Origin: Streptomyces sp. GSL17-111
GTDB taxonomy: Bacteria; Actinomycetota; Actinomycetes; Streptomycetales; Streptomycetaceae
Assembly: GCF_037911585.1 (NCBI RefSeq)
Contig: NZ_JBAJNS010000001.1
Location: 3,776,001-3,840,000, forward strand
Length of the DNA stretch: 64,000 nt
Reading direction: 5' to 3'
The position numbers and the translations under genes were made by a program. Under the pieces are notes generated by a model that had not been told where the DNA came from, did not search any database, and was given only the letters and a program-made list of their open reading frames with translations. Below, one piece after another: positions 1 through 33,942 of the stretch (position 1 is the first letter of the stretch; the number at the start of each line of letters is the position of its first letter).

Positions 1-239
1 CGCTGGGCCTTGTGGCGGGCGCGGTCGGGTGCGTACCCCAGCGTCTCCAGGGTGTACGCCGCCGCCGCGTCCGGCACGAAGAAGTGCGCGGCCCCGAAGC
101 GCGCCAGCGCCCACTGCGCCAGCCGGCGCAACCGCGGAGTGCTGAAGTAGCTGTTGAATGGACTTACTCCGATGCACACGTGCGTGGCCGAGGGTAAGAG
201 GCTGCTACATCGTTCGGTAAGTGGTTCAAATTCAAACAT
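1..239 (-). CDS. tRNA-dependent cyclodipeptide synthase, N-terminal part
   Basis: The reading frame starts at ATG 239 and runs off the left edge (80 residues visible, no stop). Residues 23-33 read IGVSPFNSYFS, the core CDPS signature. By alignment to AlbC as I remember it, Ser26 is the catalytic nucleophile (Ser37 of AlbC) and Asn29 corresponds to Asn40, which marks the NYH subfamily. The segment ARFGAAHFFVPD followed by TLETLGY and a basic RARHKAQ stretch also fits the family. Such enzymes take two aminoacyl-tRNAs and make a cyclodipeptide. A GAGGGG ribosome-binding site lies five bases before the ATG. The C-terminal Tyr-His motif is outside the window, so subfamily and product cannot be fixed. 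The gene diverges from the LysR pair; tailoring genes are expected further left. Confidence 0.86.
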   Translation of the reverse strand, partial: MFEFEPLTERCSSLLPSATHVCIGVSPFNSYFSTPRLRRLAQWALARFGAAHFFVPDAAAAYTLETLGYAPDRARHKAQ

Positions 240-502: not shown

Positions 503-1414
503 ATGGACCTGCAATTCCGTCACTTACGCCAGCTGTGCGTCATCTCCGAAACCGGGAGCCTGAACAAGGCCGCGACGATCCTCGGCCTGCCGCAGCCGGC
601 CCTCAGCCGTCAGATCCGGAGACTGGAGCAGCTGTTCGGCGGCGCGCTGTTCGAGCGCGACCAGTTCGGCACGCGTCCGACCCCGCTGGGCAGCGCCGTC
701 CTGGAGCACGCGGCGAGCATCCTCCGCTCCCTCGACGACTTCGGGGAGCAGCTGCGCGACTACCGCACCCTCCGGAGCCGGACGCTCCGCATCGGCTGGG
801 CGCACAGCGTCCTCTACGAGCCCCTGCTGAGCTCCCTACGGCGGCTGGCGTCCGCCGAGCGCCTCCAGATCGTCGCCCCCAACTCCACGCGCGAGCTCCT
901 GACCCTCCTGCGCGCCGGTGAGGTGGACATCGCCCTGCGGGACCACGCCACGACCAACGGCCCCGTCCCCTCCGGCGACGGGGCGATCACCTACGTCCCC
1001 TGGGGCGAGTCCGCCGTCCTGCTCGCGGTGGCGGCCGACCGACCGCCGGCGACCGCCGAACGGCTCACGATGGCGGACCTGGCGGGCGAGGAGTGGATCT
1101 CCTGCACCGGGCCCGACGCCTGCGACGAGAAGCTCCGCCGGCTCTGCGCCGCCTACGGCTTCGTCCCCCGCATCACGCACGACATCCCGATGTCCGGCCC
1201 CCGCGGCCAGGTGATCCGGCACCAGGGCTGCGTGGCCCTGACCCAGGCCCACCGGCCCCCGGAGCCCGGCGTCGTGTACCGGACCGTGACGGACCTGGAC
1301 ATGACGGTCGTCCACCTGGTGGGCTTCCGCGGCTGGACCGCCGACCTGATGCCGAAGCTGGTGTCGCTGCTCTCCGCCGCCCTGCGGGAGCGGGCGCCGG
1401 TCACCCCCTCATGA
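503..1414 (+). CDS. LysR-family transcriptional regulator
   Basis: This 303-residue protein has the usual LysR length. Residues 1-62 form the winged HTH (MDLQFRHLRQLCVISETGSL..., then LPQPALSRQIRRLE); the rest is the periplasmic-binding-fold effector domain, with LRIGWAHSVLYEP opening it near residue 93. I chose ATG 503 because the LysR N-terminus begins exactly there, although the frame is open upstream. It diverges from the cyclodipeptide synthase across about 260 bases, the usual position for a LysR protein controlling the opposite gene. Its stop overlaps the start of a second LysR gene. The effector is unknown, but a product or precursor of the cyclodipeptide pathway is a reasonable guess. 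Confidence 0.88.
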   Translation: MDLQFRHLRQLCVISETGSLNKAATILGLPQPALSRQIRRLEQLFGGALFERDQFGTRPTPLGSAVLEHAASILRSLDDFGEQLRDYRTLRSRTLRIGWAHSVLYEPLLSSLRRLASAERLQIVAPNSTRELLTLLRAGEVDIALRDHATTNGPVPSGDGAITYVPWGESAVLLAVAADRPPATAERLTMADLAGEEWISCTGPDACDEKLRRLCAAYGFVPRITHDIPMSGPRGQVIRHQGCVALTQAHRPPEPGVVYRTVTDLDMTVVHLVGFRGWTADLMPKLVSLLSAALRERAPVTPS

Positions 1415-2376
1415 AGGTGGAGGTCCAGGACCTGCGCGTGCTGCGGGCCGTGGCCGACAGCGGCAGCCTGGCCGGCGCCGCGCGCGCCCTCGGCGTCCAC
1501 CAGGCCGCCGTCACCCGCCGCGTCCAGCACCTGGAACGCGTGACCGGGCTCGTCGTCCTGCACCGCGACCACCGGGGCGCCTACCTCACCGGCGCGGGAC
1601 GGCTGCTGCTGCGGTGCGCCGACGAACTGCTCCCGCGCATCGACCGGCTGCTGGCCGCCGGCAGCCCCGGCGGCACGCCCGGCCCGGCGGCGGAACGCCT
1701 GCGCATCGGCGCGGTGCCCAGCTCCGCGCTCCCGCTCGTCACCGCCCGCGCCCAGGCCCTGTTCCCGTCGGCCGTCATCGAGCTCCGCACCGTCACCGGT
1801 GCCTACCGCGAGCCGGTCGGCGACAGCGGGCCGGACGACAGCGGCGCCGCCCTGCTGAGCCTCTTCCGCCTGCAGCGGCTCGACCTCGCGGTGGTCCGGC
1901 ACTCCGCCGTCCTGGGCGGCCCCCTCCCGGACCTCCTCGACTCCGCCGTGCTCGCCGAGGAGAACCTGCTCGTCGGCACCGGCGAGGGGCACCGGCTGGC
2001 GCGACGCCCCTCCGTCGCGCTCGCCGACCTGGAGGGGGAGCGGTGCCTGCTCGCCGGGGGCCGTCGGCACGCGGTGCTGCGCCGTCACTTCACGGCCGCC
2101 GTGCGCCGGGCCGACGTGGGCGTCGGGCTGCACTGGGCGCCCGACGAGGCCGAGGCGGCGGCCATCGCCTGCGCGGTCCGGGGCGTGCTGCCCGCCTACC
2201 CCTTCCCCGCCCCGGCCGCCGGCGTCGTCTACGTTCCGCTGTCCGACGCCGTCACCCGGCACGAGCTGCTGCTGGTCTGGCCGTCGGACGGCCCCGCAGC
2301 CGCCTGGGCGCCCCGGTTGGCGGACACGGTGCGCGCGGCGTATCCCGGCGCGGCGTATCCCGGGTGGGCGGGCTGA
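1411..2376 (+). CDS. Second LysR-family regulator, overlapping the first
   Basis: The start ATG 1411 overlaps the upstream stop as ATGA, so the two regulators are probably translationally coupled. The protein is 321 residues: the HTH lies in residues 1-63 (MKVEVQDLRVLRAVADSGSL, HQAAVTRRVQHLE), and the effector domain begins near residue 95 (RLRIGAVPSSALPL). The sequence is only distantly like its neighbour, so this is a pair of paralogues rather than a recent duplication. Two cotranscribed LysR genes are uncommon and may act as a pair on the divergent promoter. The gene ends 63 bases before the tRNA-Cys on the opposite strand. Confidence 0.88.
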   Translation: MKVEVQDLRVLRAVADSGSLAGAARALGVHQAAVTRRVQHLERVTGLVVLHRDHRGAYLTGAGRLLLRCADELLPRIDRLLAAGSPGGTPGPAAERLRIGAVPSSALPLVTARAQALFPSAVIELRTVTGAYREPVGDSGPDDSGAALLSLFRLQRLDLAVVRHSAVLGGPLPDLLDSAVLAEENLLVGTGEGHRLARRPSVALADLEGERCLLAGGRRHAVLRRHFTAAVRRADVGVGLHWAPDEAEAAAIACAVRGVLPAYPFPAPAAGVVYVPLSDAVTRHELLLVWPSDGPAAAWAPRLADTVRAAYPGAAYPGWAG

Positions 2377-2439
2377 CGCGCGGACCGTACGGCGGTCGTC
2401 GGCGCGCGTCCCTCGGGGGCGACGCGCGCCGACGGGCGG

Positions 2440-2510
2440 AGGTGGAGACAGGATTCGAACCTGTGTGAACGGCTCTGCGGGCCGTCGCCTCGCCTCTCGG
2501 CCACTCCACC
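2440..2510 (-). tRNA. tRNA-Cys (GCA) with atypical anticodon loop
   Basis: A complete cloverleaf folds: acceptor GGTGGAG/CTCCACC, D arm GCC/GGC, anticodon stem ACGGC/GCCGT, four-base variable loop, T stem ACAGG/CCTGT and loop TTCGAAT. The anticodon is GCA and the discriminator base is U, both Cys identity elements. The anticodon loop is CCGCAGA, so the nearly universal U33 is C and position 37 is G; the usual Streptomyces tRNA-Cys loop, from memory, is CTGCAAA. No CCA is encoded. The gene lies between the LysR pair and the MFS exporter, inside the putative cyclodipeptide locus, on the same strand as the synthase. Confidence 0.85.
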
Positions 2511-2787
2511 GCGGACGGAAGAACCGCCGGGCACCTGCGCGAAAGCGGCCGCATTCCGTTCGCATGCGGCGCCGTGCCGGTACCGGAAAGCTAGCACCTG
2601 ACGCCCTTTCGGGGAATACCGAATGTGCGCGCATTTTCTGCGTAGCCCCACCGGGCGGTCGCCCGGGGCGATTCCGTCATGCCTTTCCGGCACAGGGGTA
2701 TGCCTTCTTGTCAGGTCGGTCGACAGAAGTCGCCGGGAAAAGCTTCACTGGCCCGGACGGGGAGAATCCGACGAAACCGGTGGCAGC

Positions 2788-4353
2788 GTGGCCGAGCACG
2801 GGTCCGAAGAGTCAAAAAAATGGTGGGCTTTCGCAGGGCTGGGAACGCTGAGTTTTCTCGGCTGCATCGACCTGACCATCGTCAGCACCGCCGCGCCCGT
2901 CATTCAGGACGAACTCGGCGCGACGGTGACCGAACTCCAGCTGGTCGTCAACGTCTTCATCGTGGCCCTGGCCACCGGCATGGTGACGGCGGGCCGACTC
3001 GCCGACAGCCACGGCCGTCGCAGGGTGCTGCTCGTCGGGGCCGTCCTGTTCGGGATCGCCTCGCTCCTCGCGGGCTTCGCGGCCTCCGCGCCCTGGCTGA
3101 TCGTCTTCCGTTTCCTCCAGGGCATGGCCTGCGCCGTGCTCTACACCGCCACCGGGGCGTTGGTCTCCGCGATCTTTCCGCCGCACCAGCGGGGCAGGGC
3201 GATCGGCTGGCTCTACGGGGTCAACGGACTCGGTCTCGCGGCCGGGCCCGTGCTGGGCGGCGTCCTCGTCACCTCGGCGTCCTGGTCCTGGATCTTCTGG
3301 CTGAACGTGCCCCTCGTCCTGGTCGCGCTGGCCGTCTGTCTGCGGACGGTGCCCGAGTCGTTCGGTGAGAGGCTCACCGGCGGCATGGACCGCGCCGGCG
3401 TCGCGCTGTTGTTCACCTCCGTGCCCGCCCTCGTCCTGGGACTGACGCTCGGTCACACCGAGGGCTGGACGTCACCGGCCATCGTCGCTCTCCTCCTCTA
3501 CGGCTGCGCCGCCCTCGTCGCCTTCGGCCGTGTGGAGCTCCGGGTACGGAATCCGCTCATCCGCCTGCGCCTGTTCGCGGGGCGGAACTTCCTGGGCGCG
3601 GTCACGGCGGACTTCTCGCTGGCGTTCTTCTACTGCGTCGCCCTGTTCCTGATGCCGCTCTACCTGCACGCCGTGCGCGGCTTCGACGGGCACACCACCG
3701 GCCTGCTGCTCCTGCCGTGCACGGCGGCCGTCGCGGTCCTGTCCCCGCTCGTCGGGCGGCTCGTCGACCGCTTCGGGACGCGCCCCATGCTCTGCCTGGG
3801 CTTCCTGACCTTCGCCCTGTGCGCGCTGCTCCAGACGCGGCTGACGCCGACCACGCACCTCGGTTCCCTGATCGCCGCGTTCGTCCTGATGGGGGTCGGC
3901 TGGGCCCTCGTCCTGGGCCCCGCCACGGTCGCCGCGCTCTCCGCCGTGCCCGGCCACCTGGCCGGGACGGCCGTGGGCGCCTCGTGGACCTGCCACAACC
4001 TCGGGGGCGCCCTGGGCCTGGCCGTCGGCATGGAGGTCCACCGGATCGCGGCGCACCACGCGCTGGCCGACCGGCTGGCCGAACAGGGCCTGCCCTCCGG
4101 CCCCTGGACGGCTCAGGTCGTGGAGAGTCCGCAGGACGGCCCGGCCCTGCTCCAGCAGTACACCGGCCTCACGGCCGAGCAGGCGCACGACGTCTTCGCC
4201 GCCGTGTTCACCGGTGGCAGCCGCGCCGCGATGGAGCTGCTGCTCGTCGTCGCCGTGGTCACCCTGGCCGTCATCGCCCTCGGGCTCCGCCCGGCCCCGC
4301 CCGCGCGGAGCGTGCCGCGCGGCACGGAGCGCACGTCGGCCACGTCCCGCTGA
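2788..4353 (+). CDS. MFS efflux transporter, DHA2 (EmrB/QacA) family
   Basis: The 521-residue protein has the length and hydrophobic profile of 14-helix drug/proton antiporters. The family motif appears as IDLTIVSTAAPVI in the first helix, and motif A as GRLADSHGRRRVLL in the loop after the second. I chose GTG 2788 (VAEHGSEESKKWW), just ahead of the first helix; the frame is open further upstream but that part looks non-coding. Its position beside the cyclodipeptide synthase and LysR genes suggests that it exports the pathway product, perhaps as self-resistance. A strong inverted repeat follows the stop. Substrate specificity cannot be read from the sequence. Confidence 0.82.
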   Translation: MAEHGSEESKKWWAFAGLGTLSFLGCIDLTIVSTAAPVIQDELGATVTELQLVVNVFIVALATGMVTAGRLADSHGRRRVLLVGAVLFGIASLLAGFAASAPWLIVFRFLQGMACAVLYTATGALVSAIFPPHQRGRAIGWLYGVNGLGLAAGPVLGGVLVTSASWSWIFWLNVPLVLVALAVCLRTVPESFGERLTGGMDRAGVALLFTSVPALVLGLTLGHTEGWTSPAIVALLLYGCAALVAFGRVELRVRNPLIRLRLFAGRNFLGAVTADFSLAFFYCVALFLMPLYLHAVRGFDGHTTGLLLLPCTAAVAVLSPLVGRLVDRFGTRPMLCLGFLTFALCALLQTRLTPTTHLGSLIAAFVLMGVGWALVLGPATVAALSAVPGHLAGTAVGASWTCHNLGGALGLAVGMEVHRIAAHHALADRLAEQGLPSGPWTAQVVESPQDGPALLQQYTGLTAEQAHDVFAAVFTGGSRAAMELLLVVAVVTLAVIALGLRPAPPARSVPRGTERTSATSR

Positions 4354-16986: not shown

Positions 16987-17290
16987 CCGCTCCGCCTCCC
17001 TCTGCCAGACCGTGCAAGGCCGCCCACCCCACCACAGACGCAGCACTCGCTCTCCGGCATACGCGACGCCGCAGACCGGCTGTCCTCACCATGTCGTGCG
17101 CCACGGCGATCACCTGGTTCGTCCTGTGTGCGCCCCGGATACGGACAGTGGCCGATTCCGCAGTCAGGGCCTGCGCAAGTCCCCGGGATCGCCCACTGAC
17201 CTGAGATGCCGGAGGTTGGGGTGGATGACAGAGCGGACACGGGATCCGTGATCATTCAGGTGTCTGAGCCAAGCGAACAAGAGGGTTCCC
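16987..17290. other. Gap between deaminase and IS remnants
   Basis: I see no gene here. The right part (about 17195-17290) resembles the end of an insertion sequence leading into the transposase fragment that follows, but I could not define an inverted repeat. Confidence 0.35.
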
Positions 17291-17400
17291 GTGTCCACCG
17301 TCTCGTCTTCCCCGATCCCCCCCGCGTCGGCCAAGTTGGGTCCGCTCAATCCTGACAACACATCTGACCTGCGCGTCTTCCTGGAGGCGGTGCGCCTTGG
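17291..17400 (+). pseudogene. Transposase N-terminal fragment (possibly ISAs1 type)
   Basis: A GTG-started frame gives VSTVSSSPIPPASAKLGP followed by TSDLRVFLEAV, which resembles the beginning of actinomycete ISAs1-type transposases. After about 37 residues the similarity stops and the frame becomes meaningless, so only the 5' tip survives. The family assignment is from memory and weak. Confidence 0.4.
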
Positions 17401-17462
17401 TGGGCGACCGGGTGTGGTGCCGGACCGAGTGAGAAGGCCCGCCACCCGATCTCCGACCTGCG

Positions 17463-17945
17463 TCACTGGAGGTACTGCCAGTTCCAGAGTTGATAGCTCT
17501 GGTCTTTCCAGCTCTGTTGGACCACGGGGGCTCCCCGCAGCGGAGAACCGTCGCGAACGGAGAGCGCCTGCCCGCTGTGCTTCGCCGTCAGGCGCAGCGC
17601 TCCGTTCTCCAGGATGTCGAGGGACCAGCGCTGGTAGTCCGCGCCGTTCCAGTCCCATTGGACGACCGCCGCTCCCTCGTCCTTGGAGGCAGCCCTGACG
17701 TCGAGCACCTTTCCACTGAGCAGGGACACCACGCGGAGGGTTCCTTCTCCCACTGCTTCCAGGCGCCAGAACTGGTTGTCCTGCCCGGTCCATGCCGACT
17801 GGACGGCCAACGCCCCGTTCTTCTTCGAGGCGTTCTCGATATCGAGCGCCATGTGCGTGCTCTTGACGACGAGGGGCGTCTCGACGCTCCAGCCGATGTG
17901 ACTCAGGGAGCGACTCTGTCGGGGATCTTGGAGTTCTCGGGACAA
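17463..17945 (-). pseudogene. Ricin-type lectin domain, 5'-truncated by the IS
   Basis: From residue 14 on, the frame encodes a ricin-B/CBM13-like domain with repeating units: ALDIENASKKNGA, QSAWTGQDNQFW, KVLDVRAASKDEGAAVVQW, YQRWSL, QALSVRDGS, QLWNWQYLQ and stop. These carry the Q-W repeat of the trefoil. The first 13 residues, from a TTG at 17945, are read out of the IS1182 end, so the true N-terminus (perhaps a secretion signal or enzyme domain) has been lost. Nothing on the other side of the IS resembles the missing part, which implies a deletion as well as an insertion. Whether the chimeric frame is expressed is unknown. Confidence 0.72.
17908..17929 (+). repeat. Left inverted repeat of the IS1182 element
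   Basis: This 22-base end begins GAGCGACTCTGTC and is the exact reverse complement of 19676-19697. Confidence 0.9.
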
Positions 17946-18008
17946 GGGCTGTCGGTGCTTGGAACGCTTCGGACAGTCCTGCGCAGTTCCGTCCTCCTGA
18001 GGTGATCA

Positions 18009-19664
18009 GTGTCCGTTCGTCCCCGGTCCGGTGCAGTAGTTCCCAAGCTCACGGCCCAGATGGCGCGGGCCAGCAACCCCCGCGGCACCACGGCGATGTG
18101 GGCACGTGATCACCTCGACGGACTCTGGAGCGACAGGGACTTCGCCTCCTGGTACCCGCGCGACGGCCGCCCCGGGCTCTCGCCGGCCCAACTCGCCACG
18201 GTCTGTGTGCTGCAGTTCCTGCTCAACCTCTCCGACCGGCAGGCGGCCGAGGCGGTCCGGTGCCGGATCGACTTCAAGTACGCCCTGGCCCTGGAGCTGG
18301 ACGACCCGGGATTCCACCACAGCGTGCTGACCGACTTCCGTGATCGTCTGTGCGAGGACGATCGCGCGGACCAGCTGCTCTCGTTGTCGCTGGAGCGGAT
18401 GCGGGAGGCCGGCATGGTCACCGAGCGCGGGAGGCAGCGCAGCGACTCCACTCAGGTCCTCGCTGCCGCGCGGGACCTCACCCGCCTAGAGCTGGTCCTC
18501 GAAGCGGTACGCGCGGCCTTGGAGGAAGCCGCTCAGCGGGCACCTGAGGTCCTGGACGGGCTGGTGGACAGCGATTGGGCCACCCGCTACGGGCGTCCGG
18601 TGCGCCTTCCCAGTCAGCCGAGTCACCCTGTCACCCGGCTCAAGCAGGCGGGAGCGGACGCCCGCCAACTCCTGGAACGCTTGACGCCCCACCAGCGCGG
18701 TCCTCGCGCGGAAGCGCTACGGAGGATCATCGTGCAGAACTTCCTCCTCGACGCCCGTGGCGGGTTACGTCCTCGCACCCAGAAGGACGGACAGCCCAAA
18801 GGAGCTGTGCGGATCGTCTCGCCCTACGACTGCGAAGCCCGCCGGGCCATCCGGGGCAATACCCGCTGGAGCGGCTATCTGGTCCACATCACCGAGACCT
18901 GCGAGACCGGCGCCCGGACCAACCTGATCACGGACATCGCCACCACCAGGCCGACCCGGGACACCGAGGCCCTCCCCGGCATCCACACCCGCCTCCGTGA
19001 CCGCCGACTGCTGCCCCGGCAGCACCTTCTCGACGGCGGCTACCTCTCCGTTTCGCTGCTGCACCGCTCCCTCCGCGACCACGAGGTCGAACTCGTCGGA
19101 CCCGTCAAAGCCAGCGGAGCATGGCAGAGCAAGGAACAGACCGGCTTCACCCGGGACGAGTTCTCTATCGACTTCGACCAGCGCCAGGTCACCTGCCCCA
19201 ACGGCAAAACCAGCCACATCTGGATCGAACCACCGGCCATGGCGCCCTACACCGTGGCCCGGTTCCGCCCACACCAGTGCGACCCGTGCCCCGACCGGTC
19301 TGCCTGCACCCGTGGCACCGCCGCCCGCACCGTGAACTTCCTCCCCCGACCCCTCCACGAGCTCCAGGCTCGAAACCGCACAGACCAGCAAGACCCCCAG
19401 TGGAGAAGGCTCTACGCCACCCGGTCCGGAGTCGAAGGCACCATCTGCGAGTTCATCAACGGACACCGGGCCCGCCGCAGCCGCTACCACGGCATCCGCA
19501 AGACACACGTGCAGCACGTCCTGACCGGCATCGCGATCAACATCGAACGCCTCGCCTCACGCACTACCCGACACCCCCACCGCCCTCGCTCCTCCACGAC
19601 CTTCCAGCAGTACCTCACCGCCCGCGGTCTGACCTGGCAATGCTGGTGGCGACAAGGCAAATGA
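18009..19664 (+). CDS. IS1182-family transposase
   Basis: The 551-residue protein has the family layout: N-terminal region MWARDHLDGLWSDRDFASWYP, then RIDFKYALALELDDPGFHHSVLTDFR, and a DDE core with aspartates in RSDSTQV (about residue 145) and LLDGGYLS (about 342) and the glutamate in SGVEGTICEF (about 476). A Cys-rich insert (QCDPCPDRSACTRG) precedes the last motif. GTG 18009 follows GAGGTG at good spacing. No frameshift or stop interrupts it. Confidence 0.9.
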   Translation: MSVRPRSGAVVPKLTAQMARASNPRGTTAMWARDHLDGLWSDRDFASWYPRDGRPGLSPAQLATVCVLQFLLNLSDRQAAEAVRCRIDFKYALALELDDPGFHHSVLTDFRDRLCEDDRADQLLSLSLERMREAGMVTERGRQRSDSTQVLAAARDLTRLELVLEAVRAALEEAAQRAPEVLDGLVDSDWATRYGRPVRLPSQPSHPVTRLKQAGADARQLLERLTPHQRGPRAEALRRIIVQNFLLDARGGLRPRTQKDGQPKGAVRIVSPYDCEARRAIRGNTRWSGYLVHITETCETGARTNLITDIATTRPTRDTEALPGIHTRLRDRRLLPRQHLLDGGYLSVSLLHRSLRDHEVELVGPVKASGAWQSKEQTGFTRDEFSIDFDQRQVTCPNGKTSHIWIEPPAMAPYTVARFRPHQCDPCPDRSACTRGTAARTVNFLPRPLHELQARNRTDQQDPQWRRLYATRSGVEGTICEFINGHRARRSRYHGIRKTHVQHVLTGIAINIERLASRTTRHPHRPRSSTTFQQYLTARGLTWQCWWRQGK

Positions 19665-19675
19665 GCCGCAGGCAC

Positions 19676-19697
19676 AAGATCCCCGACAGAGTCGCTC
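19676..19697 (+). repeat. Right inverted repeat of the IS1182 element
   Basis: This end, finishing GACAGAGTCGCTC, pairs perfectly with 17908-17929. Confidence 0.9.
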
Positions 19698-19968
19698 ACT
19701 GACCGGGATCGGGGCTTCAGCCTCGGTCGGGTCGGTCGCAGACAGCTACGACAATGCGATGGCCGAGGCGCTGAATGGCACCTTCAAGGCCGAGCTGATC
19801 GAGATGCAAGGACCGTGGCGGGACGTTGACCAGGTCGAGCGGGCGACCTTCCAATTGGTCACCTGGTACAACGAGGAACGGCTCCACTCCGCCCTCGAAT
19901 ACGTACCGCCCGCCGAGTACGAACGCGAGTGGTGGCGACAACAGGAAACCACCCCGCAGTCCGCCTGA
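19698..19968 (+). pseudogene. IS3-family transposase, C-terminal fragment
   Basis: From the IS1182 edge onward one frame reads SVGSVADSYDNAMAEALNG, then TWYNEERLHSALEYVPPAEYE and a stop at 19968. This is the typical end of an IS3-family OrfB, with the glutamate of the DDE triad present in AEALNG. The first two-thirds of the gene are missing. The sequence after the stop, about 19981-20001 (ACTCTACGAAACTCGGGGC), looks like the outer end of that element. Confidence 0.78.
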
Positions 19969-20000
19969 AACAAGATCACCGGACTCTACGAAACTCGGGG

Positions 20001-20314
20001 CAGCTCACCTGACCGCGGCCCGCGCCCATGGCATCGTCCAAGCCTGCCTCACCAGGCAGATCCTCGTGCTGGCCGACCGCGCCTACCAGGGCGCCGGCGC
20101 CACCGTCCGCACCCCGTACTACGGCCATCGCGACCTACCCGAGCACTATCAACGGTTCAACCGCGATCACGCCCGGCTGCGCGCACCCGGCGAACGCGCC
20201 TTCGCCCGACTGAAGTCCTGGCGAGCACTGCGCAGAGCCCGCTGCTCAACCCGACGCATCGGCCGCACCGTCCAAGCCGTACACGTCCTCCTGACCTGCT
20301 ACTACACAGGATGA
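20001..20314 (+). pseudogene. IS5-type transposase, C-terminal fragment
   Basis: The frame encodes ILVLADRAYQGAGATVRTPYY, NRDHARLRAPGERAFARLKSW and RTVQAVHVLLTCYY before a stop at 20312-20314. This is the end of an IS5/IS1647-like DDE transposase (D in LADRAYQG, E in GERAFARLKSW). It abuts the IS3 end with no start of its own. It is the third broken element in this pile. Confidence 0.75.
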
Positions 20315-20449
20315 AAGAGGTTCACTGACACAGCCTTGTACATGAGGGGCCGTTGAGCGGTGGTGCGTGTCTGACTGCGTGATAGCGCCACGAGCAGGGC
20401 GGCCTCGGCCGCCCGAGCCCCGAGCAGACGGGGCCGCCGCCGAGCGGCC

Positions 20450-22723
20450 TCAGGTGCCGTCGGAAGTGAGCGTGGCCATCATGCGGGCCACGCCCTCCCT
20501 CTCGGCCACCGTCGGCCCGGTCGAACGGGCGGGCGCAGGGCGTCTCGGGGTCCTCGGGGCGCTGAGGGACGATGCCGATGCCTCCACGAGGGCGCGGACC
20601 TTGGCGAAAATCTCCTCGTCAAGCCGGTAAAGGTCCCCATCCCCGGATTCGTAATGACGGAAGATGGCCTCCATCTCGGTCAGGTCATATCTGGACCCAT
20701 CACCGTGCTCCATCCAGCTCTCCAGAGCCCATTCGACGTAATCGTCCATGCGGCCTGCGACATACTCATACGCCTCTTCGCCTTTTTCGAAATCCGTCAG
20801 CAGTGAGGCGAAATCCAGGGCGTCGCTCAAGGATCGCCAATCCGAAAGATCGAACTCCATTATCCATTCGGCTGCCTGGTCGGCTGCTTGCGGGAGGAAT
20901 TCTCTGAGATCCTGCCTCTTCGAATCGCCGAGAAAGCTGAGAATGTCCTGAACCGTCTGTTGATCCCATGCTTCGCTGATCGCGCTGTCTTCGCTGATAC
21001 TCTGCCAACCAATGTCATGCACGCGCTCGGACGTCACAGCGGTTCCCAGCTTCAGGTAGAGCAGGGCCCGGTGGGCGTTGTCATGCGCGGAGTGGTGACC
21101 TTCTACCACGACGGTCTCCGACCGGAAGGCAAGCTCCGCACTCCGTTCCAACTCCGGCATGCAGCGCATCAAGGCTTTCAGTACCTGCTCCGCGTTACGG
21201 GAGGACAGCATGGACCATAGCGACTCGACCTGCTCGAAGAGCCGGATGCGACCGACGAAGTCCTTCATCTCGGAGTGATCGGAAGAGATGAAATCGCGCA
21301 TGTAGTCACGCACCGACGGGTTATGGAACTCCACGAACACCACTTCTCCGTGACGCACGCTCCTGAGCATCGTCCCGTCCAGTACCTTCAAGGCATTGTG
21401 CAGGTCCCGGAGTGCACCCCCCGATGAAGCCCAGACGCTTTCGAGGGTATCCATCCGGATGCCGGACAGGAAGGATAGTTGCGTTTTAAGTAGGAGGGTG
21501 TCAGATGGGCCGATTTGGTGGTTGACGATGTGACCCCAAACGCGGCCGGGGTCATTCAGGTTCGCAACCATTTCGGTCGCGATGCGCTTCCCGGCGGCCC
21601 CGAATGCTACAGCCTCGGACAGTGTCGCGGCGATGACGCGCGGATTGAAATTCTCGTGCTGGACAATGGGTGCGTACGCATCTGGAGATGCGAATATTGA
21701 CTTCGTGCGGGCCGGAAGGCTGGAGGCGGAGACGTGGTTGTAGAGGATTGATGCCCTCGCCCCGTACGTGTAATTGGCCACATCGAGCACGCACGTCTGG
21801 ATATCGAAACGGTGCCTATCGAGGCGCTCGTACCTCTGTCTGGCCTGCGCGAGAATGTACTCCCGCGTGGTGAGTAAAAGCCTCTTGTTGGGGGAGTTCG
21901 TCGCCCGCTGCATCAGAGATATGAGGCGGCCGTCCTCGTTCTTCCCCAGCTTTTCGTCAATCGCGGTCTGTCCCAGAAAATCGTCGTAGTAGAAAAGTTG
22001 AGGGACGCCAGGGTCCCATAGTGCATTTGCTTCCTCCGCGTCTTCGGCGATCTCTATGATGTCGTACCCGTGACTTGCGTAGTGAGCACACAGCACATGG
22101 CTGAGCGTGGTCTTACCTACTCCCGGAGCCCCGGCGACCACGCACACGTGCCGATTGTCAAGGAGTCGCAGCGCCTCCCCGAGGCTGCCGTTGTCGGCAT
22201 ACGTGCGCAGTGTGGCGTTGACTGCGTCGGCGAGGGCGTGGGAACGCGTGACGATGCTCTTGGACATGAGGGCGTTGAGTACCGAAGCGCTCGTGAGCCA
22301 GAGTCGCAGATGCCGCCTGACCACCTGATCGTGCTTGCGGAGAAGCGCATCGATGTCATCTTTGCCGTAGATGTCGCCCGGTGACCTGACGAACGGCTGC
22401 AGCATGTCGTAGAGCTTGTCCTTGGCGGCACGGCTGAGCTCGACCGATGTGGCAAGGACATAGCGCCCTGGCTTGAGATGGGCGAGCTTGGGGGCCTCGA
22501 CCTTCCGCATGTGGGCCAGCAGCTTGGCTCGGCCGGACCGGTGGAAGTGCTTGCACTGCACGATGAGAGCGGGATCGTCTCCCTGCATATGCCGCAGATC
22601 CACGCCTCCGTCCGGCCCGGAGGTGAAGATCTCCAGCCGAACGCCGAATTCCAGCTCGAGGAGGTCCTTGCACACGGCCTCGAAGTCGAAGTCCGTCAGC
22701 CTGCCCACGTCGAACGTTTCCAT
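20450..22723 (-). CDS. Mrr-like nuclease / STAND NTPase fusion, putative phage defence
   Basis: The 757-residue protein (ATG 22723) joins two modules. Residues 10-110 form a restriction-endonuclease-like domain: FDFEAVCKDLLELEFG, then Asp38/Asp42 in SGPDGGVDLR and the QCK motif at 56-58, the Mrr-type PD-(D/E)xK site. Residues about 185-450 form a STAND/AAA-type NTPase of the nSTAND3 kind, with Walker A GAPGVGKTT at 198-206 and Walker B QLFYYDDF near 245. The last 300 residues are helical and probably sense the trigger. STAND-nuclease fusions such as Avs proteins recognise phage proteins and destroy DNA. GC content is visibly lower than in core genes, supporting transfer. A GTG 39 bases upstream is an alternative start. 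Confidence 0.82.
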   Translation of the reverse strand: METFDVGRLTDFDFEAVCKDLLELEFGVRLEIFTSGPDGGVDLRHMQGDDPALIVQCKHFHRSGRAKLLAHMRKVEAPKLAHLKPGRYVLATSVELSRAAKDKLYDMLQPFVRSPGDIYGKDDIDALLRKHDQVVRRHLRLWLTSASVLNALMSKSIVTRSHALADAVNATLRTYADNGSLGEALRLLDNRHVCVVAGAPGVGKTTLSHVLCAHYASHGYDIIEIAEDAEEANALWDPGVPQLFYYDDFLGQTAIDEKLGKNEDGRLISLMQRATNSPNKRLLLTTREYILAQARQRYERLDRHRFDIQTCVLDVANYTYGARASILYNHVSASSLPARTKSIFASPDAYAPIVQHENFNPRVIAATLSEAVAFGAAGKRIATEMVANLNDPGRVWGHIVNHQIGPSDTLLLKTQLSFLSGIRMDTLESVWASSGGALRDLHNALKVLDGTMLRSVRHGEVVFVEFHNPSVRDYMRDFISSDHSEMKDFVGRIRLFEQVESLWSMLSSRNAEQVLKALMRCMPELERSAELAFRSETVVVEGHHSAHDNAHRALLYLKLGTAVTSERVHDIGWQSISEDSAISEAWDQQTVQDILSFLGDSKRQDLREFLPQAADQAAEWIMEFDLSDWRSLSDALDFASLLTDFEKGEEAYEYVAGRMDDYVEWALESWMEHGDGSRYDLTEMEAIFRHYESGDGDLYRLDEEIFAKVRALVEASASSLSAPRTPRRPAPARSTGPTVAEREGVARMMATLTSDGT

Positions 22724-22915
22724 GGTCCCGCCCCCTGCCTGATCATCCGCGGGCCGGGCCACTAGCCAGGGCTGCGGGCCCCGAAGTCACGCTGAACGGA
22801 GCGTGGATCAGCATTCCATGAGTCGCGATGCCATGCGTGCGGCTCGCGCTGGCCAGGGCTTTGGATACGGCAGAGCAGCTGTGTCGTTCGAAGACGGCGG
22901 GGTCGTAAGCGCCGA
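22724..22915. other. Gap upstream of the STAND gene
   Basis: No convincing gene lies in these 192 bases. They separate the STAND gene from the GNAT gene on the same strand and presumably hold the STAND gene promoter. Confidence 0.35.
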
Positions 22916-23440
22916 TCAGCGGACGACGCGGATCATCACGGTGAGGATCGGCGAGGCCGGTGACGGCTGGCTCTGCCCGATGTCCTCGTACCCCCACGAC
23001 CTGTAGAGCGCGTGGACCTTTCCGCCACCGGCGGCCGGGTTGACCATGAGCGTGACATACGGCTCGTCGTGCGTGGCGGGGAGAGCATCATGGATGCGCC
23101 GGGCAGTACCGGTCTTCCTCCAGGCTGGCCGGACGCCGATCTCCTTCAGGGCCACGGCCGGTCGCTCGGTGTACTTCTCCGCCAGCGCGGGACTCGTGCG
23201 CTGCCAGTAGCGGTCACCGTGCTCGATAGTGTTTCCGTAGGCGCAGCCGACCGGACGCCCGTCCGCGTACGCGAGGACGACCGTGAACCCCGGCTCGGTG
23301 CTGTGCCGGTCCAGGCGCTCGCCGAACGCGGTGATCGCGTAGTTCGGCAGGTGGAGCAGCGGGACGCGCACGTCGGCGTACACGTCGAGGGGATCGCCGC
23401 GGATGGTGTCGAGACCGGTGAAGGTGCGCAGTCCGATCAC
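22916..23440 (-). CDS. GNAT-family acetyltransferase
   Basis: The 174-residue protein has a GNAT fold: FTVVLAYADGRPVGCAYGNTI (strands 2-4), AVALKEIGVRPAWRKTGTARRIHDAL (the acetyl-CoA loop, here with R-x-T-G-T-A rather than Q-x-x-G-x-G) and VNPAAGGGKVHALYRSWGYEDIG. The start is GTG 23440, without an obvious ribosome-binding site. Similar proteins are common in Streptomyces; the substrate is unknown. It lies between two likely defence genes and could be a cargo gene. Confidence 0.82.
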   Translation of the reverse strand: MIGLRTFTGLDTIRGDPLDVYADVRVPLLHLPNYAITAFGERLDRHSTEPGFTVVLAYADGRPVGCAYGNTIEHGDRYWQRTSPALAEKYTERPAVALKEIGVRPAWRKTGTARRIHDALPATHDEPYVTLMVNPAAGGGKVHALYRSWGYEDIGQSQPSPASPILTVMIRVVR

Positions 23441-23609
23441 GGGGGCCGTGGTCGTGCGGCACCCTCCATGTGGCGGTGTGCTCGGTCCAGGTCTGGACGG
23501 TGGTGCTGCCGGGCGCGGTAGCGCGCAGCGCGGCCCCGAATTCCTGCAGCATGTGCGCTACGCGAGCATTTCGGGTAGCGGCGGTGGAGGAGACCGGGCC
23601 TTGGGCCAA
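23441..23609 (-). other. Possible short ORF or frameshifted leader before the GNAT
   Basis: From 23609 the minus strand encodes VAHMLQEFGAALRATAPGS and TVQTWTEHTATWRVPH, which looks like real protein; it then runs on, out of frame with the GNAT gene, into low-quality sequence ending at 23214. Either it is a small gene whose 3' end overlaps the GNAT, or a frameshift has split a longer gene. I cannot decide. The remaining bases to 23954 hold no visible gene. Confidence 0.3.
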
Positions 23610-23954
23610 GGGCCCCGCTCCCGGACCCGCGCTGTGGTGTCGAGCGAAGTGGCAGCTTTCCCTGCTCCCACTGGTCCGCTCGCTGCGTGAGCGTTGCTCG
23701 GGGGCGGCATCGGGCCAGCTCTGAAGGTTCTCGCCAGGGAATCCGTGGTTCGGCTTGGACGGGCGCGAGATGCACAGGTTGCGCCTGGATCGGTCCGAAT
23801 CGGTCAGATCCGTTCACGGTGCCAACAGGTCACCCCCACAAGGCATAAGATGATGCGCCTGGGGTGGTTGTTGCCCAGGTCAATGTGTGTGGCGAGGCGC
23901 CGCTGGTGGCTTGCCTCTGCCCCGAGACGCTAGGGAACGGAGCGGCTGAGAACG

Positions 23955-25826
23955 GTGCACCTGCACAGCTTCACCGTGTGCGGATTCCGATCCCTCAAGG
24001 ATGTCCGCGATATTCCAGTCAGCACACCGACCATCCTTGCCGGCCAGAACGACGGTGGTAAGAGCGCGGTGCTTGCCGCGCTGGCTTTTCTCGTGGGCAA
24101 TGAGCAGTTGACTGAGGACGATCGTACCTACGAGCTCGACTCTCCCGATGACGTGGACGTTGATGACTCGGCGCCTCTCCTGCGGTGTTCGACCACATGG
24201 GTGGATGGGCAGTTCACCCTCGACCCCTGGGAGTTGGAAACGTTCGGCTTCCCGGTAGAGGAGTTGCGCGTACGGCGGCGTGCCGTCAACGGCGAGGAAC
24301 CCGTCCTTGAGTGCTGGGCGCCGCTCGCGGACGACGAGCGGCTGCGTGACCCTTCTAAGCTGTCCCTCAACGAGGTGAGAGCCCTCGCCAAGCAGTTACT
24401 TCCTGAGCTGTCGTCCATTAAGCGCGGCGACATCGAGCCAGCCCTGTGCAAGTACGGCATGGCTCACGCATCGGCGTCGGGCTGGGTTCCTGCTCCGAAG
24501 GGGATGGTGCGCCGCATGCCCCGGCTGATGCCGTTCGACGGGAAGTCCGCCGATCCCGACGCTGCTGTGAAAACCGCGCTGATGGGCCGTTACCAGGTAC
24601 ATATGGCGGATCCCACGCTTGAGGGGCAACTGCAGTCGATCGAGGCCGGAATCAGGGAACGCCTTCAGGGTGACGCTCGGTCTCTGTGCGAACACATTCA
24701 GAGCCGTTGCGACGACCTCACCGAGGTAGACGTCGAGCCCGTGGTCTCGTTCACTCACGGTTTCCGGGGAGCGCCGCTGCGGATCGCCCGTACGAAGGGC
24801 GAGACCGTGGGCCTGGAGCGTTCCGGCCTGGGCAGCGCACGCCGTATCTCCTTGGCGATCTGGGAGTGGAACAGTCGGCTGCTCACGCGTGAGGAGTTCG
24901 CCGACGTCGACTCTCCAGCGGATCCTGAGGCCGCCGAGGACACCCCGCCGCCGGTACAGACGATCGTGATCTACGACGAGCCGGACACGCATCTCGACTA
25001 CGGACACCAGCGCAAGATTATGCAGCTCATCCGTGACCAGTGCGCACTGCCCCATGTGAATGTCATCGTCGCCACCCATTCCATGAACCTGATCGATGGT
25101 GTCGACATCGCCGATGTCGTCCATCTGCGGCTGGAGCACGGCCGGACGCTGATCGAGCGACTGGGGGCTGACACCCACGACGATATCGATATCCACCTGG
25201 GTCGCATCGCCGCAGCGGTGGGCCTCCGCAACTCCGTTCTGCTACACGAGCGTTGCTTCCTGGCTGTTGAGGGCGACACCGAACAGCGGGTGATCCCCAT
25301 GCTGTTCCGGCTGTCCGAGGACCAGTCTCTGCAGTCGGCTGGCGTTGCCCTGTGGGCGTGCTTCAACAACGAGGGGGCGCTGCACCTTGCCCACTATCTG
25401 GTCGAGCACGGCCGCTCTGTGATGCTCATGGTGGATGCCGACAGCCGGACCTTGCCCAAGGGTCTCTTCAAGGAAGCCCGTCTCCAACAGTTCTTCGGCA
25501 GCGCTGTCGACGACGTGGTCCGTTTCGTGGGTGAGCCGGACTCCTTCAACGAGTTGGAGGAACTGTTTCCGGACGACCTGTGGGCCGAGGCCGCCAATGA
25601 ACTTTGGCCGAAGGGTGAGCTGTGGACCACGGACGACTTCACTGCTCAGCGCGGCAAGAAGTTCAGCAAGGAAGTGTTGAACATGCTCCGCAGCCGCAGC
25701 ACGAGCGGGCCCAGCGGCAAGCCCGACATGATGTTCGGGCTGGTGAGCACGCTCACCAGCCCTGATCAGGTGCCCGCACAACTGCGTGAGGTCTTCGGTG
25801 AGATCAGAAAGCTGGCCGCAGGATGA
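23955..25826 (+). CDS. OLD-family ATP-dependent nuclease (class 1 type)
   Basis: The 623-residue protein pairs an ABC-type ATPase with a Toprim nuclease. Walker A is GQNDGGKS (30-37); the signature-like ERSGLGSARRIS precedes Walker B VIYDEPDTHLD (about 339-347); H-loop ATHSMNL follows. The Toprim domain starts near residue 433 with FLAVEGDTEQ (metal-binding Glu about 437) and has VDAD near 493-496. No UvrD/GajB-like helicase lies next to it, so a class 1 stand-alone OLD is more likely than a Gabija pair. Its family includes phage P2 Old, which excludes other phages. GTG 23955 has only a weak ribosome-binding site. Confidence 0.85.
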   Translation: MHLHSFTVCGFRSLKDVRDIPVSTPTILAGQNDGGKSAVLAALAFLVGNEQLTEDDRTYELDSPDDVDVDDSAPLLRCSTTWVDGQFTLDPWELETFGFPVEELRVRRRAVNGEEPVLECWAPLADDERLRDPSKLSLNEVRALAKQLLPELSSIKRGDIEPALCKYGMAHASASGWVPAPKGMVRRMPRLMPFDGKSADPDAAVKTALMGRYQVHMADPTLEGQLQSIEAGIRERLQGDARSLCEHIQSRCDDLTEVDVEPVVSFTHGFRGAPLRIARTKGETVGLERSGLGSARRISLAIWEWNSRLLTREEFADVDSPADPEAAEDTPPPVQTIVIYDEPDTHLDYGHQRKIMQLIRDQCALPHVNVIVATHSMNLIDGVDIADVVHLRLEHGRTLIERLGADTHDDIDIHLGRIAAAVGLRNSVLLHERCFLAVEGDTEQRVIPMLFRLSEDQSLQSAGVALWACFNNEGALHLAHYLVEHGRSVMLMVDADSRTLPKGLFKEARLQQFFGSAVDDVVRFVGEPDSFNELEELFPDDLWAEAANELWPKGELWTTDDFTAQRGKKFSKEVLNMLRSRSTSGPSGKPDMMFGLVSTLTSPDQVPAQLREVFGEIRKLAAG

Positions 25827-26043
25827 AAGTGCGCAGCGCTGACCCGGTCTCATTGGTACCGCTGCGGTGTCGCCGCCGTGCGAGCATGCGGTCCTTGCGT
25901 TGCTCCAACGTCGGTGGTTCCCACCTATGCCACCCCACCGGAGGCTTCCAGCGCTGCGCATGCTCCCGCGCCTCAAGTCCACACCATCGGCAACCACCCG
26001 GAGTAGGAATGTGCTGGTCAGAGTCACTTCGCTGGTCAGTCAT
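25804..26043 (-). CDS. Small zinc-ribbon-like protein
   Basis: The 79-residue protein contains GGCRWCGLEAREHAQRW, then VGWHRWEPPTLEQRKDRM: a CxxC and two histidines, suggesting one bound zinc. I recall near relatives in actinophages and Streptomyces mobile elements, all without function. ATG 26043 follows GGGAGGGAGACTC. The 3' end overlaps the OLD gene by 23 bases on the opposite strand. Confidence 0.65.
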   Translation of the reverse strand: MTDQRSDSDQHIPTPGGCRWCGLEAREHAQRWKPPVGWHRWEPPTLEQRKDRMLARRRHRSGTNETGSALRTFILRPAF

Positions 26044-26420
26044 GAGTCTCCCTCCCCGCTGCAGAGTCTTCCCTATGGCACTGACATCACCCCTGTCTGG
26101 AGGGTGGTTTATCTCATGCTAAAACGGGTGGAATGGGTGGGCCGCTGGGGCCGGTCCTGTCACCTCCGCCGCATCGACACGGTTTGTCGGGCACAGCCGC
26201 ATCGCACTGCGCGTCTACTGACCTTCGTGCACTGTCGATGACCGGCTGTTCGGATACGGCCGCTCGCCGCCGTCCGAATGGGTGAAGAACGGTGGGCGTC
26301 TAAATCGTTGATTCGGAGCCGATTTCCAGCTTGAGGCAAGGAAGCGCCGAGCTGACTGTGGTGCTTCCTCACCTCGTCCGGAACCGGTTTGGGTAGCGCT
26401 ATTGGCTGCTCAGGAACCAG
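26044..26420. other. Gap without a recognisable gene
   Basis: These 377 bases separate the small zinc protein from the end of the peptide operon. No frame looks coding. The GC content is lower than average. I see no hairpin that clearly ends the operon. Confidence 0.4.
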
Positions 26421-27245
26421 TCAAACCAGTTCAGCAGCCCGGGAGCGCAGCGCTGGGACGAGTTCGGGATGGTCTCCGCGTGAGGCCGACTGCAGTAGCT
26501 CGGTCACGACGATGATCTGGGCGATGCGTCCGAGTTCCGTCTTGAGTACGGGGAAGGCGTCACGGACGCGCTGGGCGAAGCGGGGAACGAGCAGGGAGTA
26601 CGCCAGCAGCATGGCAGCGTCGTGGCCTACCGGTGCCAGGCCGAAGCCCTCCCAGTCGAGCAGATAGGGGGTGGTGCTCGTGAGGTTGGCCGTGTGCAGG
26701 TCTCCGTGCGCCGTCGCCCAGTCCGTGATCTTCGGGGCAGGCATGCCGAGGAAGCGCGGGACGCTGCGGTCCACCCACTCCTGTCGTACGGCCACGCGGT
26801 CTGTGGGGGCGACGCTCACGTAGTCGAGGTCGGTACGGAGGGAGTGCCACCAGGCGGTCGGCAGGTCTGGGTCCGTGTGCAGGACGGGGCTGTGGGAGCA
26901 GATAGGCTCGGCGACGTACTGGTGTAGCTCGGCCTGGTAGGCGTAGCCGTCGCTGCTGGACTCCGTGGTGTCGTGGAGCAGGGGCTTATGAACGTGCCCG
27001 TCGAAGAGTGCGGCGGCCTGGCGATTGCCCTCCCAGATCTTTCCTGCGGCTCTGTCCTGTGGCGTGGAGAGCAGACGCAGCCAGCAGGCGCCCCGGTCCG
27101 GGTGCTCGACGCGGCTGCTGAGGGTGCGGCCGTGCCAGCCCCAGACCTCGGGGCCGGTGACTGTGACATCCAGCGTCTCAGCAGACTGCGCGAAGACCCG
27201 GCGCATGCGCTGCTGGTCCGTAGGGTCAGCCGGCGGCGAGTACAT
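26421..27245 (-). CDS. APH-like small-molecule kinase, last gene of the peptide operon
   Basis: The 274-residue protein has the aminoglycoside/choline kinase core: catalytic HGDLHTANL (about 179-187) and metal-binding LLDWEGFGLAPVGHD (Asp about 196), then a helical end. The N-terminal lobe is recognisable but divergent (GPEVWGWHGRTLSSRVEH). The family phosphorylates hydroxyl groups of antibiotics, sugars or other small molecules, and sometimes peptides. Its start overlaps the end of the aldo/keto reductase gene by 20 bases, so both are surely cotranscribed. A role in phosphorylating or detoxifying the operon product is inference. Confidence 0.75.
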   Translation of the reverse strand: MYSPPADPTDQQRMRRVFAQSAETLDVTVTGPEVWGWHGRTLSSRVEHPDRGACWLRLLSTPQDRAAGKIWEGNRQAAALFDGHVHKPLLHDTTESSSDGYAYQAELHQYVAEPICSHSPVLHTDPDLPTAWWHSLRTDLDYVSVAPTDRVAVRQEWVDRSVPRFLGMPAPKITDWATAHGDLHTANLTSTTPYLLDWEGFGLAPVGHDAAMLLAYSLLVPRFAQRVRDAFPVLKTELGRIAQIIVVTELLQSASRGDHPELVPALRSRAAELV

Positions 27246-28134
27246 CCAGCACCTTTCGCAGTGTAGGGACAGGGAGGGCCGGGTTCCGCAGGGCGGCTTG
27301 GGCTTCGGCCCAGTGTGCCGGGGTGGAGGCGGAGAGCAGAGTCCGCGTCACCCCGGGGCAGGACGCCGCCGCCAGCAGGCATGCCTGGACGGTGGTGAGG
27401 TCCGGGTTCAGCAGCGCGGTGAGTTCGCGGGTGGCCAGGTGTGGCAGTTCGCCGCCGAAAAGGGGTGCCGAGGCGTACACCTGCCATCCGAGGCCGGCCG
27501 CCTGAGCGATGGGGCCATCGCCGTTCAGGGCCTGGGCGAAGGCGGTGGCGGTGACGAGGGATACGGGCAGCTGGATGGCCCGTAGGTGGTGCTGTTCCGT
27601 GCCGGCGGCTTCGGTGGCCAGCCGGTGCAGGGCAGTGATGCTCAGGGCGCCGGTGTCGAAGCCGTCCCAAGTGGCGACGCCGTATGAGGTGAGGGTGCCG
27701 GCGGCCGCTTCTGCTTCGAGGGCGGCAAAGGTGCCGCGGAGGGCTTCGTAAGGGTCGCCGACGGTGCGCTCGGGGTTGTGGGCGAAGACGAGGTCCAGGC
27801 GGCCGCGGCCGAGTTCGGTGCGGTTGCGGGCGCATTGCCAGTGGACGTACGGGCTGCTCAGGCAGTGCCCGTGCTCCGCGTCAACGCTGGTGATGACTCC
27901 GTCTGAAACAGCATCCTTGGCGGATTGGCCGGTCAGGAATCCGACCTTGGTGGAGACCTGAACGGAATGCTGGGTGAGAACGGGGGCGAGCAGCGGCTGC
28001 GCCTGCCCACCGAGGTAGTTGGGTGCGGTGTCAAGCCACGCGGTGCCGGGGTCGGTGGCCGCGCGGCCAACAGCGTCGTTGAGCGCGGAGGGGCGGAGGC
28101 GATAGGTGCCCAGCCCCAGGGCTGCCGTCGTCAT
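27226..28134 (-). CDS. Aldo/keto reductase family protein
   Basis: The 302-residue protein has the whole catalytic tetrad: Asp35 and Tyr40 (WLDTAPNYLGG), Lys63 (VSTKVGF) and His119 (LVFAHNPE). The barrel continues with SYGVATWDGF and YASAPLFGGEL. It would reduce a carbonyl using NADPH. The start overlaps the JmjC stop by four bases (ATGA) and its end overlaps the kinase start, so it is the middle of a coupled enzyme trio. Confidence 0.83.
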   Translation of the reverse strand: MTTAALGLGTYRLRPSALNDAVGRAATDPGTAWLDTAPNYLGGQAQPLLAPVLTQHSVQVSTKVGFLTGQSAKDAVSDGVITSVDAEHGHCLSSPYVHWQCARNRTELGRGRLDLVFAHNPERTVGDPYEALRGTFAALEAEAAAGTLTSYGVATWDGFDTGALSITALHRLATEAAGTEQHHLRAIQLPVSLVTATAFAQALNGDGPIAQAAGLGWQVYASAPLFGGELPHLATRELTALLNPDLTTVQACLLAAASCPGVTRTLLSASTPAHWAEAQAALRNPALPVPTLRKVLDVLAAG

Positions 28135-29324: not shown

Positions 29325-29340
29325 CGCGTCTCCTTCCGAA

Positions 29341-29487
29341 TCAGTCGTTGCCGTCGGAGCGGCCGGTGCTGCCGCCGTCGGACGGGGTGACGCCGCGCTC
29401 GCGGGCGGCCTGGATCCGGCGACGTGCCTTGACCAGTCCGGCCTGGGCCGGACCGGCCGTCGGCGTGGTGGCAGGGGTGTGAGGCAT
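29341..29487 (-). CDS. 48-residue peptide, putative modification substrate
   Basis: A strong AGGAGG site five bases before ATG 29487 and tight spacing to the JmjC gene support translation. The peptide has three parts: a Thr/Pro/Ala-rich start (MPHTPATTPTAGPAQ), a basic predicted helix (GLVKARRRIQAARERG) and a flexible Ser/Gly/Asp end (VTPSDGGSTGRSDGND). It has no Cys and no signal peptide. The layout of leader helix plus small polar tail would suit a RiPP precursor; Arg and Asp/Asn residues are possible hydroxylation sites. I recognise no named family, so it could equally be a small regulator. Confidence 0.68.
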   Translation of the reverse strand: MPHTPATTPTAGPAQAGLVKARRRIQAARERGVTPSDGGSTGRSDGND

Positions 29488-29601
29488 TGCTCCTCCTAGA
29501 GCCGATGGATGAAGTGGCATTGCTGACCCACCTCGGACGCCGCTCGGCCTGTCCAAGCGGCGTAGTGGCTGGACCGTCCGAAGCGGGGTCTTGCGGCCCG
29601 C

Positions 29602-29655
29602 CCCTGCCGGGACTTCTCGAAGTAGGGAACATCTCGATCGGTACGTCCGGCAGGG
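29602..29655 (-). terminator. Nested hairpin between membrane peptide and 48-aa peptide genes
   Basis: Arms CCCTGCCGG (29602-29610) and CCGGCAGGG (29647-29655) are complementary; inside the loop, ACTTC/GAAGT form a second small hairpin. It lies just after the 40-residue ORF and 115 bases before the peptide gene. It may be a terminator or attenuator, or may stabilise the downstream transcript. Confidence 0.4.
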
Positions 29656-29663
29656 ACGGGAAC

Positions 29664-31781: not shown

Positions 31782-31785
31782 GCCG

Positions 31786-33751: not shown

Positions 33752-33942
33752 GCGGACGACTCCTCCGGTCGGACTTCGCATTGGGGCACTTCACTGGGCG
33801 GCAGACTTTAGTTGATGTACGAATTATTACACAAGCGCTTCTGTGTCGTGCGCGATGCGTTACGAGTGCAGCCCGTTCCAGAGTCCACGCGTCCGCCGAT
33901 CGAGGAAGCGTGTGGGGGTACGGCCCTGTAGCCGACTGTGGG

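Follow-up and report, generated by a model that had tools for sequence, protein, structure and literature searches.

The stretch of DNA analysed here (the window; 64,000 nt of Streptomyces sp. GSL17-111) carries an extra tRNA-Cys gene that is a fixed member of a cyclodipeptide synthase (CDPS) gene cluster and not a stray duplicate. We consider it fairly likely that this tRNA provides a supply of Cys-tRNA to the CDPS and is partly withdrawn from translation; judging from sequence comparison, several Streptomyces species probably have here an extra tRNA-Cys set aside for the synthesis of small molecules and not of proteins.

The tRNA gene and its cluster

The following features were located in the window:

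1-239, minus strand: 5' part of the CDPS gene, which starts at 239 and leaves the window at its left edge (whole gene, L059:11499-12239)
503-1414, plus strand: LysR1 regulator (PF00126 and PF03466), divergent from the CDPS, conserved neighbour
1411-2376, plus strand: LysR2 regulator (PF00126 and PF03466), convergent with the tRNA, conserved neighbour
2398-2433, minus strand: GC-rich hairpin immediately downstream of the tRNA, resembling a terminator but with no T run (direct reading)
2438-2510, minus strand: extra tRNA-Cys(GCA), mature body 2510 to 2440, then CC and G (ARAGORN and Rfam RF00005)
2450-2462, minus strand: T-arm pair 51-63 (positions 2462 and 2450), A-U here and G-C in canonical tRNA-Cys
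2474-2480, minus strand: anticodon loop 32-38, with C33 at 2479, GCA at 2478-2476 and G37 at 2475 (direct reading)
2588-2596, minus strand: extended -10 promoter of the tRNA, TGCTAGCTT, with GGTATTCC at 2620-2613
2680-2713, no strand assigned: LysR-box-like dyads (T-N11-A) between tRNA and MFS gene, TGCCTTTCCGGCA at 2680-2692 and TGCCTTCTTGTCA at 2701-2713
2788-4353, plus strand: DHA2/EmrB-type MFS exporter (TIGR00711), divergent from the tRNA, conserved neighbour

ARAGORN, Rfam (57.4 bits against a cut-off of 29) and direct reading agree on the intact fold, GCA anticodon and U discriminator proposed in the preliminary description; the cloverleaf, GCA and U73 expected of a tRNA-Cys are all present, and the predicted fold is like that of canonical tRNA-Cys. 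The 3' end encoded by the gene is CCG, CCA not being encoded. The unusual anticodon loop that had been pointed out is likewise real, reading C32 C33 G34 C35 A36 G37 A38 (CC-GCA-GA). U33 shapes the U-turn of the anticodon loop and A37 supports the A36-U1 pairing; both the U33 and the A37 beside A36 are missing from the copies of the window genome, S. chumphonensis, S. calvus, G388 and G148, which share the loop CCGCAGA.

The tRNA lies between LysR2 and the MFS exporter (TIGR00711, 246 bits against a cut-off of 230). Past LysR1, on the other strand, come the CDPS, an NCS1 permease, a secreted thioredoxin, an S8 subtilase, a thioredoxin reductase (TrxR), an ArsR-type regulator and a glyoxalase-like protein; we regard as cluster members the EmrB-type MFS, the tRNA-Cys, the two LysR genes and the series from the CDPS to the TrxR. 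The CDPS neighbour assumed in the preliminary description, of which the first 239 bases are in the window and the remainder lies just outside, was verified by matches to PF16715 (E 3e-67) and TIGR04539 (254.7 bits against a cut-off of 45). Residues of NYH type (equivalents of N40, Y202 and H203) were recognised by eye in comparison with Rv2275 and YvmC, as SPFNS and YH. A dithiol oxidase of the GliT/HlmI kind was considered for the TrxR and rejected, because its profile score, 360.8 bits against 343.45, marks it as an ordinary thioredoxin-disulfide reductase.

The motif TGNTANNNT was found upstream of all ten cluster-type tRNA genes, at distances of 27-117 nt (expectation 0.6; maximum of 4 in 2000 shuffles). 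Dyads of the T-N11-A kind (TGCC-N5-GGCA type) numbered 14 across the ten loci in the interval between tRNA and MFS gene, against 1.5 expected and with none of 300 shuffles reaching that count, and similar dyads numbered 15 against 2.7 expected between LysR1 and CDPS, figures that are indicative only since the motif was derived from the very sequences in which it was counted and these are related to one another. This arrangement suggests that the tRNA may belong to a LysR-controlled set. Comparable GC-rich hairpins follow the tRNA gene in several other species.

The window genome (6.03 Mb, 99.96% complete) contains exactly one further tRNA-Cys, the canonical copy (G000:C1:5515395-5515467), which lies in a Gly-Cys-Val-Val-Val tRNA cluster, encodes CCA and has the loop CUGCAAA with U33 and A37. 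The gene count and the loop comparison proposed in the preliminary description gave neither of the results that would have refuted its reading: the window copy is not the sole tRNA-Cys, and C33/G37 is not the general loop of Streptomyces tRNA-Cys. Among 94 distinct tRNA calls from all the loci examined, the credible cases without U33 are cluster tRNA-Cys only, a fourth such call being a false tRNA-Ala. As for charging enzymes, the genome has one true CysRS and one weaker CysRS-like match, probably MshC; a CysRS dedicated to the cluster was ruled out on this count.

Linkage to the CDPS across Streptomyces and a second tRNA-Cys type

Searching for CDPS relatives in contigs representing one genome per species led to four further Streptomyces, and in all four a tRNA-Cys was found at the same place. 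The T-arm of the variant tRNA-Cys, used as a probe against 393 Streptomyces genomes, matched in eight; the match in G355 turned out to be a canonical tRNA-Cys gene with one T-loop difference. The cluster-type tRNA-Cys is thus present in seven of the 393 genomes, six of which have this CDPS subfamily and five an adjoining CDPS cluster (window genome, S. rimosus, S. calvus, G388 and G392). Counting as the same slot a tRNA beside LysR2, and beside the MFS gene where the contig reaches it or the MFS is present, it is occupied in seven species: the window genome, S. chumphonensis, S. calvus, G388, S. somaliensis, G392 and S. rimosus. The expectation that the variant tRNA accompanies the CDPS in other strains was therefore borne out. 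An eighth species (G341; L107 and L251) is rearranged: some 107 kb separate tRNA and MFS gene from the LysR-CDPS-NCS1-Trx-subtilase-TrxR block. The ninth (G148, L106:8861-12736) has a decayed locus, in which CDPS, NCS1 permease and MFS are lost and LysR2 is broken, while tRNA, subtilase and TrxR are kept.

In the tree of CDPS, NCS1 permease and thioredoxin the tRNA-bearing clusters form one clade with G392 basal (support 98-100) and with no firm branching order inside it; a single gain of the cluster-type tRNA, kept afterwards, would therefore be the simplest history. In a search of 316 relatives, aimed at genomes outside Streptomyces, the cluster-type tRNA turned up in three Streptomyces already known to have it and in no others. 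Not every cluster of this CDPS subfamily includes a tRNA: none is linked in the Actinokineospora cluster L094 or within about 9 kb of the related clusters of G031, G154 and G090, while the contig of the G198 cluster is too short to judge. More distant CDPS genes (Streptomyces CDPS below about 51% identity and three elsewhere in the class) have no tRNA-Cys within about 9 kb.

Genome G231 falls outside the tRNA-bearing clade and has the same operon, followed on the same strand, 7 nt past the TrxR stop, by a tRNA-Cys of another type (type B). The type-B body is unrelated to the cluster-type one and occurs elsewhere as the scattered second tRNA-Cys of many Streptomyces, so the G231 gene points to a second, independent recruitment. 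Type-B tRNA-Cys genes are also present in G031, G154 and G090, elsewhere in the genome.

Some observations on these extra tRNA-Cys genes stand apart from the cluster. At least two tRNA-Cys matches were obtained in about 70% of the sampled Streptomyces genomes, many of them of the second type (GGCCGTGTGCCCGAGTGG...; L185, L187, L198, L204, L206, L234, L244 and other loci), and in several genomes two copies lie on one strand at a distance of 4-20 kb, as the two ends of an integrated element might. Streptomyces somaliensis has two cluster-type tRNA-Cys (L167:990-1061 and L091:519-592; loops CUGCAGA and UCGCAAA) plus a canonical copy; the second copy lies on a 2.5 kb contig without any cluster protein. 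A cysteine dioxygenase-like protein is encoded about 7 kb from the orphan tRNA-Cys of G148 (L106:16237-16782, minus strand). A second, divergent tRNA-Cys was seen in Actinokineospora (L214:9254-9326), whose genome also has a CDPS-NCS1-Trx-TrxR cluster; no cluster genes lie within about 9 kb of it.

Constraint on the tRNA and expected use by the ribosome

Window and canonical tRNA-Cys derive from the same parent sequence, with identical acceptor stem, anticodon and U73; they differ at positions 26, 33, 37, 44, 45, 51, 57 and 63, and the window copy has its own promoter sequence and no encoded CCA. When the ten cluster-type tRNAs were compared with canonical tRNA-Cys, acceptor stem, U73 and GCA were invariant in all ten, all ten had A51-U63 for G51-C63 together with G57, and most had G26 and U44 for A26 and C44. 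G18G19 is kept in every copy. Within the anticodon loop the species vary at positions 32, 33 and 37 only. Besides CCGCAGA there are three further loops: the normal CUGCAAA, seen in S. rimosus and G341; CUGCAGA, shared by G392 and the second of the S. somaliensis copies; and UCGCAAA, in the first S. somaliensis copy, where the D-loop is also changed and 27-43 is a C-U mismatch. Of the four positions of this loop outside the anticodon three are variable, compared with 8 of the 67 others, an enrichment with Fisher p 0.01.

Between species the tRNA body is 96% identical, whereas the 5' and 3' flanks reach 62% and 66%, near the 58% of the shuffle control. A conserved body amid near-random flanks led us to reject the pseudogene reading, and with it the plain drift in an extra copy that had been offered as the alternative. 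The pattern of substitutions is one of purifying selection on shape and Cys identity under relaxed or changed decoding demands and not of free drift.

The preliminary description had also put forward a tRNA dedicated to synthesis. The dedication itself is well supported by association and conservation, because the same slot is occupied in seven species and G231 has its operon-end tRNA. C33 is not its defining mark, given the normal loops of S. rimosus and G341, the change common to all copies being that at 51-63 and 57. Impaired decoding is thus not required; that the cluster tRNA decodes poorly is plausible, but such a defect would not be universal.

The non-proteinogenic tRNA-Gly of Staphylococcus aureus has A49-U65 and A51-U63 in place of G49-U65 and G51-C63, pairs that favour strong EF-Tu binding, and the substitution at 51-63 is listed among those that make this binding weaker (PMC4052509); the same account is given in outline elsewhere (PMC9976931). 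Both weakened T-stem pairs are present in the cluster tRNA-Cys, A49-U65 being common to canonical tRNA-Cys as well. We had regarded A51-U63 as exceptional, a view toned down after a control on the other tRNAs of the window genome, where it occurs in ordinary elongators (Arg, Gln, Ile, one Pro and one Met). Since it is so common there, any evasion of EF-Tu would be partial at most: A51-U63 predicts an affinity below that of canonical Cys-tRNA, not exclusion.

Proposed role, alternatives and known systems

In the mechanism that we propose, transcription of the tRNA would start at the gene's own promoter, with the LysR regulators of the cluster probably in control. The housekeeping CysRS would charge it by reading GCA and U73, the Cys identity elements (PMC9976931). 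The resulting Cys-tRNA would feed the CDPS, cysteine entering one of its pockets or both, with cyclo(Cys-Cys) or cyclo(Cys-X) as the probable product, the MFS pump exporting it and thioredoxin and TrxR handling the thiols. Aminoacyl-tRNA is shared between CDPS and EF-Tu, the CDPS taking it by the acceptor end (PMC7566563). As the acceptor stems are identical, the CDPS should be able to use both canonical and cluster Cys-tRNA. The extra gene would add a pool that is less used by EF-Tu and the ribosome (through A51-U63 and mostly C33 and/or G37), and synthesis would then not starve translation. Canu (2020) is said to have found that the acceptor arms alone are needed by CDPS, in which case the loop changes should not hinder it. 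That the CDPS uses cysteine is probable, judging from the tRNA-Cys, the thioredoxin pair and the known cyclo(Cys-Cys) group of NYH CDPS (11 characterised, 60 members; PMC5816076). Against the supply role we count the retention of the tRNA in G148 after the CDPS was lost and the clusters of G031, G154 and G090 that have no linked tRNA. In its strongest form, to which we give a tentative and slightly less than even chance, the cluster would encode its own non-proteinogenic Cys-tRNA donor, freed from decoding, shifted away from EF-Tu, switched on with the CDPS and recruited at least twice from different tRNA-Cys lineages.

An ordinary extra tRNA-Cys, boosting translation of Cys codons or replacing tRNA drained by the CDPS, with C33/G37 as tolerated drift, would agree with the normal loops of S. 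rimosus and G341, with an A51-U63 pair inside the range of normal elongators and with the second tRNA-Cys, of another type, that most Streptomyces have. C33, however, occurs in no other credible tRNA call examined, and the loop changes recur at two decoding positions while identity elements never change; we hold this explanation to be unlikely, and it overlaps the supply of Cys-tRNA to the CDPS in that the tRNA is still tied to the CDPS cluster. Substitutions at normally invariant sites, the persistence of the tRNA in G148 and the irregular first copy of S. somaliensis could instead betray a decaying, functionless duplicate carried along by linkage to the cluster, but the conserved body between near-random flanks, the compensatory change at 51-63 with a paired change at 26/44, the promoter sequence kept in ten of ten and the independent recruitment in G231 make this very improbable.

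Transfer RNA genes are common integration sites, and the same-strand pairs formed by some type-B tRNA-Cys would suit an attachment site, or the scar of an integrative element that brought the cluster; yet in intact loci the tRNA has an internal place in the cluster, flanked by LysR2 and the MFS gene, and a conserved promoter sequence of its own; of the neighbouring reading frames examined none stood out as an integrase, and the G231 tRNA sits elsewhere, at the operon end. We give this origin very little credence, and equally little to a regulatory tRNA acting as sensor or effector, for instance via a T-box, and not as amino acid donor: the two LysR genes and the LysR-box-like repeats nearby would fit such a role, but no T-box or other Rfam leader was found in the window, L059, L089, L104 or L146, and the Cys identity elements are conserved.

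The supply of Cys-tRNA to the CDPS has its closest parallel in the S. aureus tRNA-Gly, which serves FemXAB in building peptidoglycan bridges: both would be extra isoacceptors for a ribosome-independent enzyme using aminoacyl-tRNA, and both show the listed EF-Tu-weakening change of 51-63 from G-C to A-U (PMC4052509). The cluster tRNA-Cys differs in amino acid and pathway and in sitting within a biosynthetic gene cluster; unlike the S. aureus tRNA-Gly, in which the GG at 18-19 is replaced, it keeps G18G19, and it has additional changes at 33/37. In the valanimycin cluster the seryl-tRNA synthetase VlmL is a comparable case of a secondary-metabolite cluster supplying part of its own aminoacyl-tRNA system (PMC4052509), although here the cluster brings the tRNA and not the synthetase. 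The CDPS itself resembles the NYH enzymes, including the cCC/cCX groups, in its PF16715/TIGR04539 match and NYH-type residues; full-text searches, which covered few subscription papers, found no description of a tRNA gene with a role in a CDPS cluster. Bicyclomycin clusters near tRNA genes have been discussed as mobile-element neighbourhoods (PMC5930311).

In the strongest form of the proposal, the secondary pathway would have an aminoacyl-tRNA pool to itself. A co-regulated tRNA borne by the cluster, with loosened translational constraints, would be a direct answer, for cysteine, to the competition between CDPS and EF-Tu or translation for aminoacyl-tRNA, in a genome whose canonical Cys-tRNA pool comes from a single gene. 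The tRNA gene would also predict the substrate of an uncharacterised CDPS subfamily, embedded tRNA genes would be worth scanning for in biosynthetic clusters, and a natural cluster tRNA-Cys may serve cyclodipeptide production.

Further along the window, the stretch 17000-35000 contains a transposase-like gene (18009-19664) and mixed genes and ends at a tRNA-Arg(CCT) (34816-34889); it may be an integrated element.
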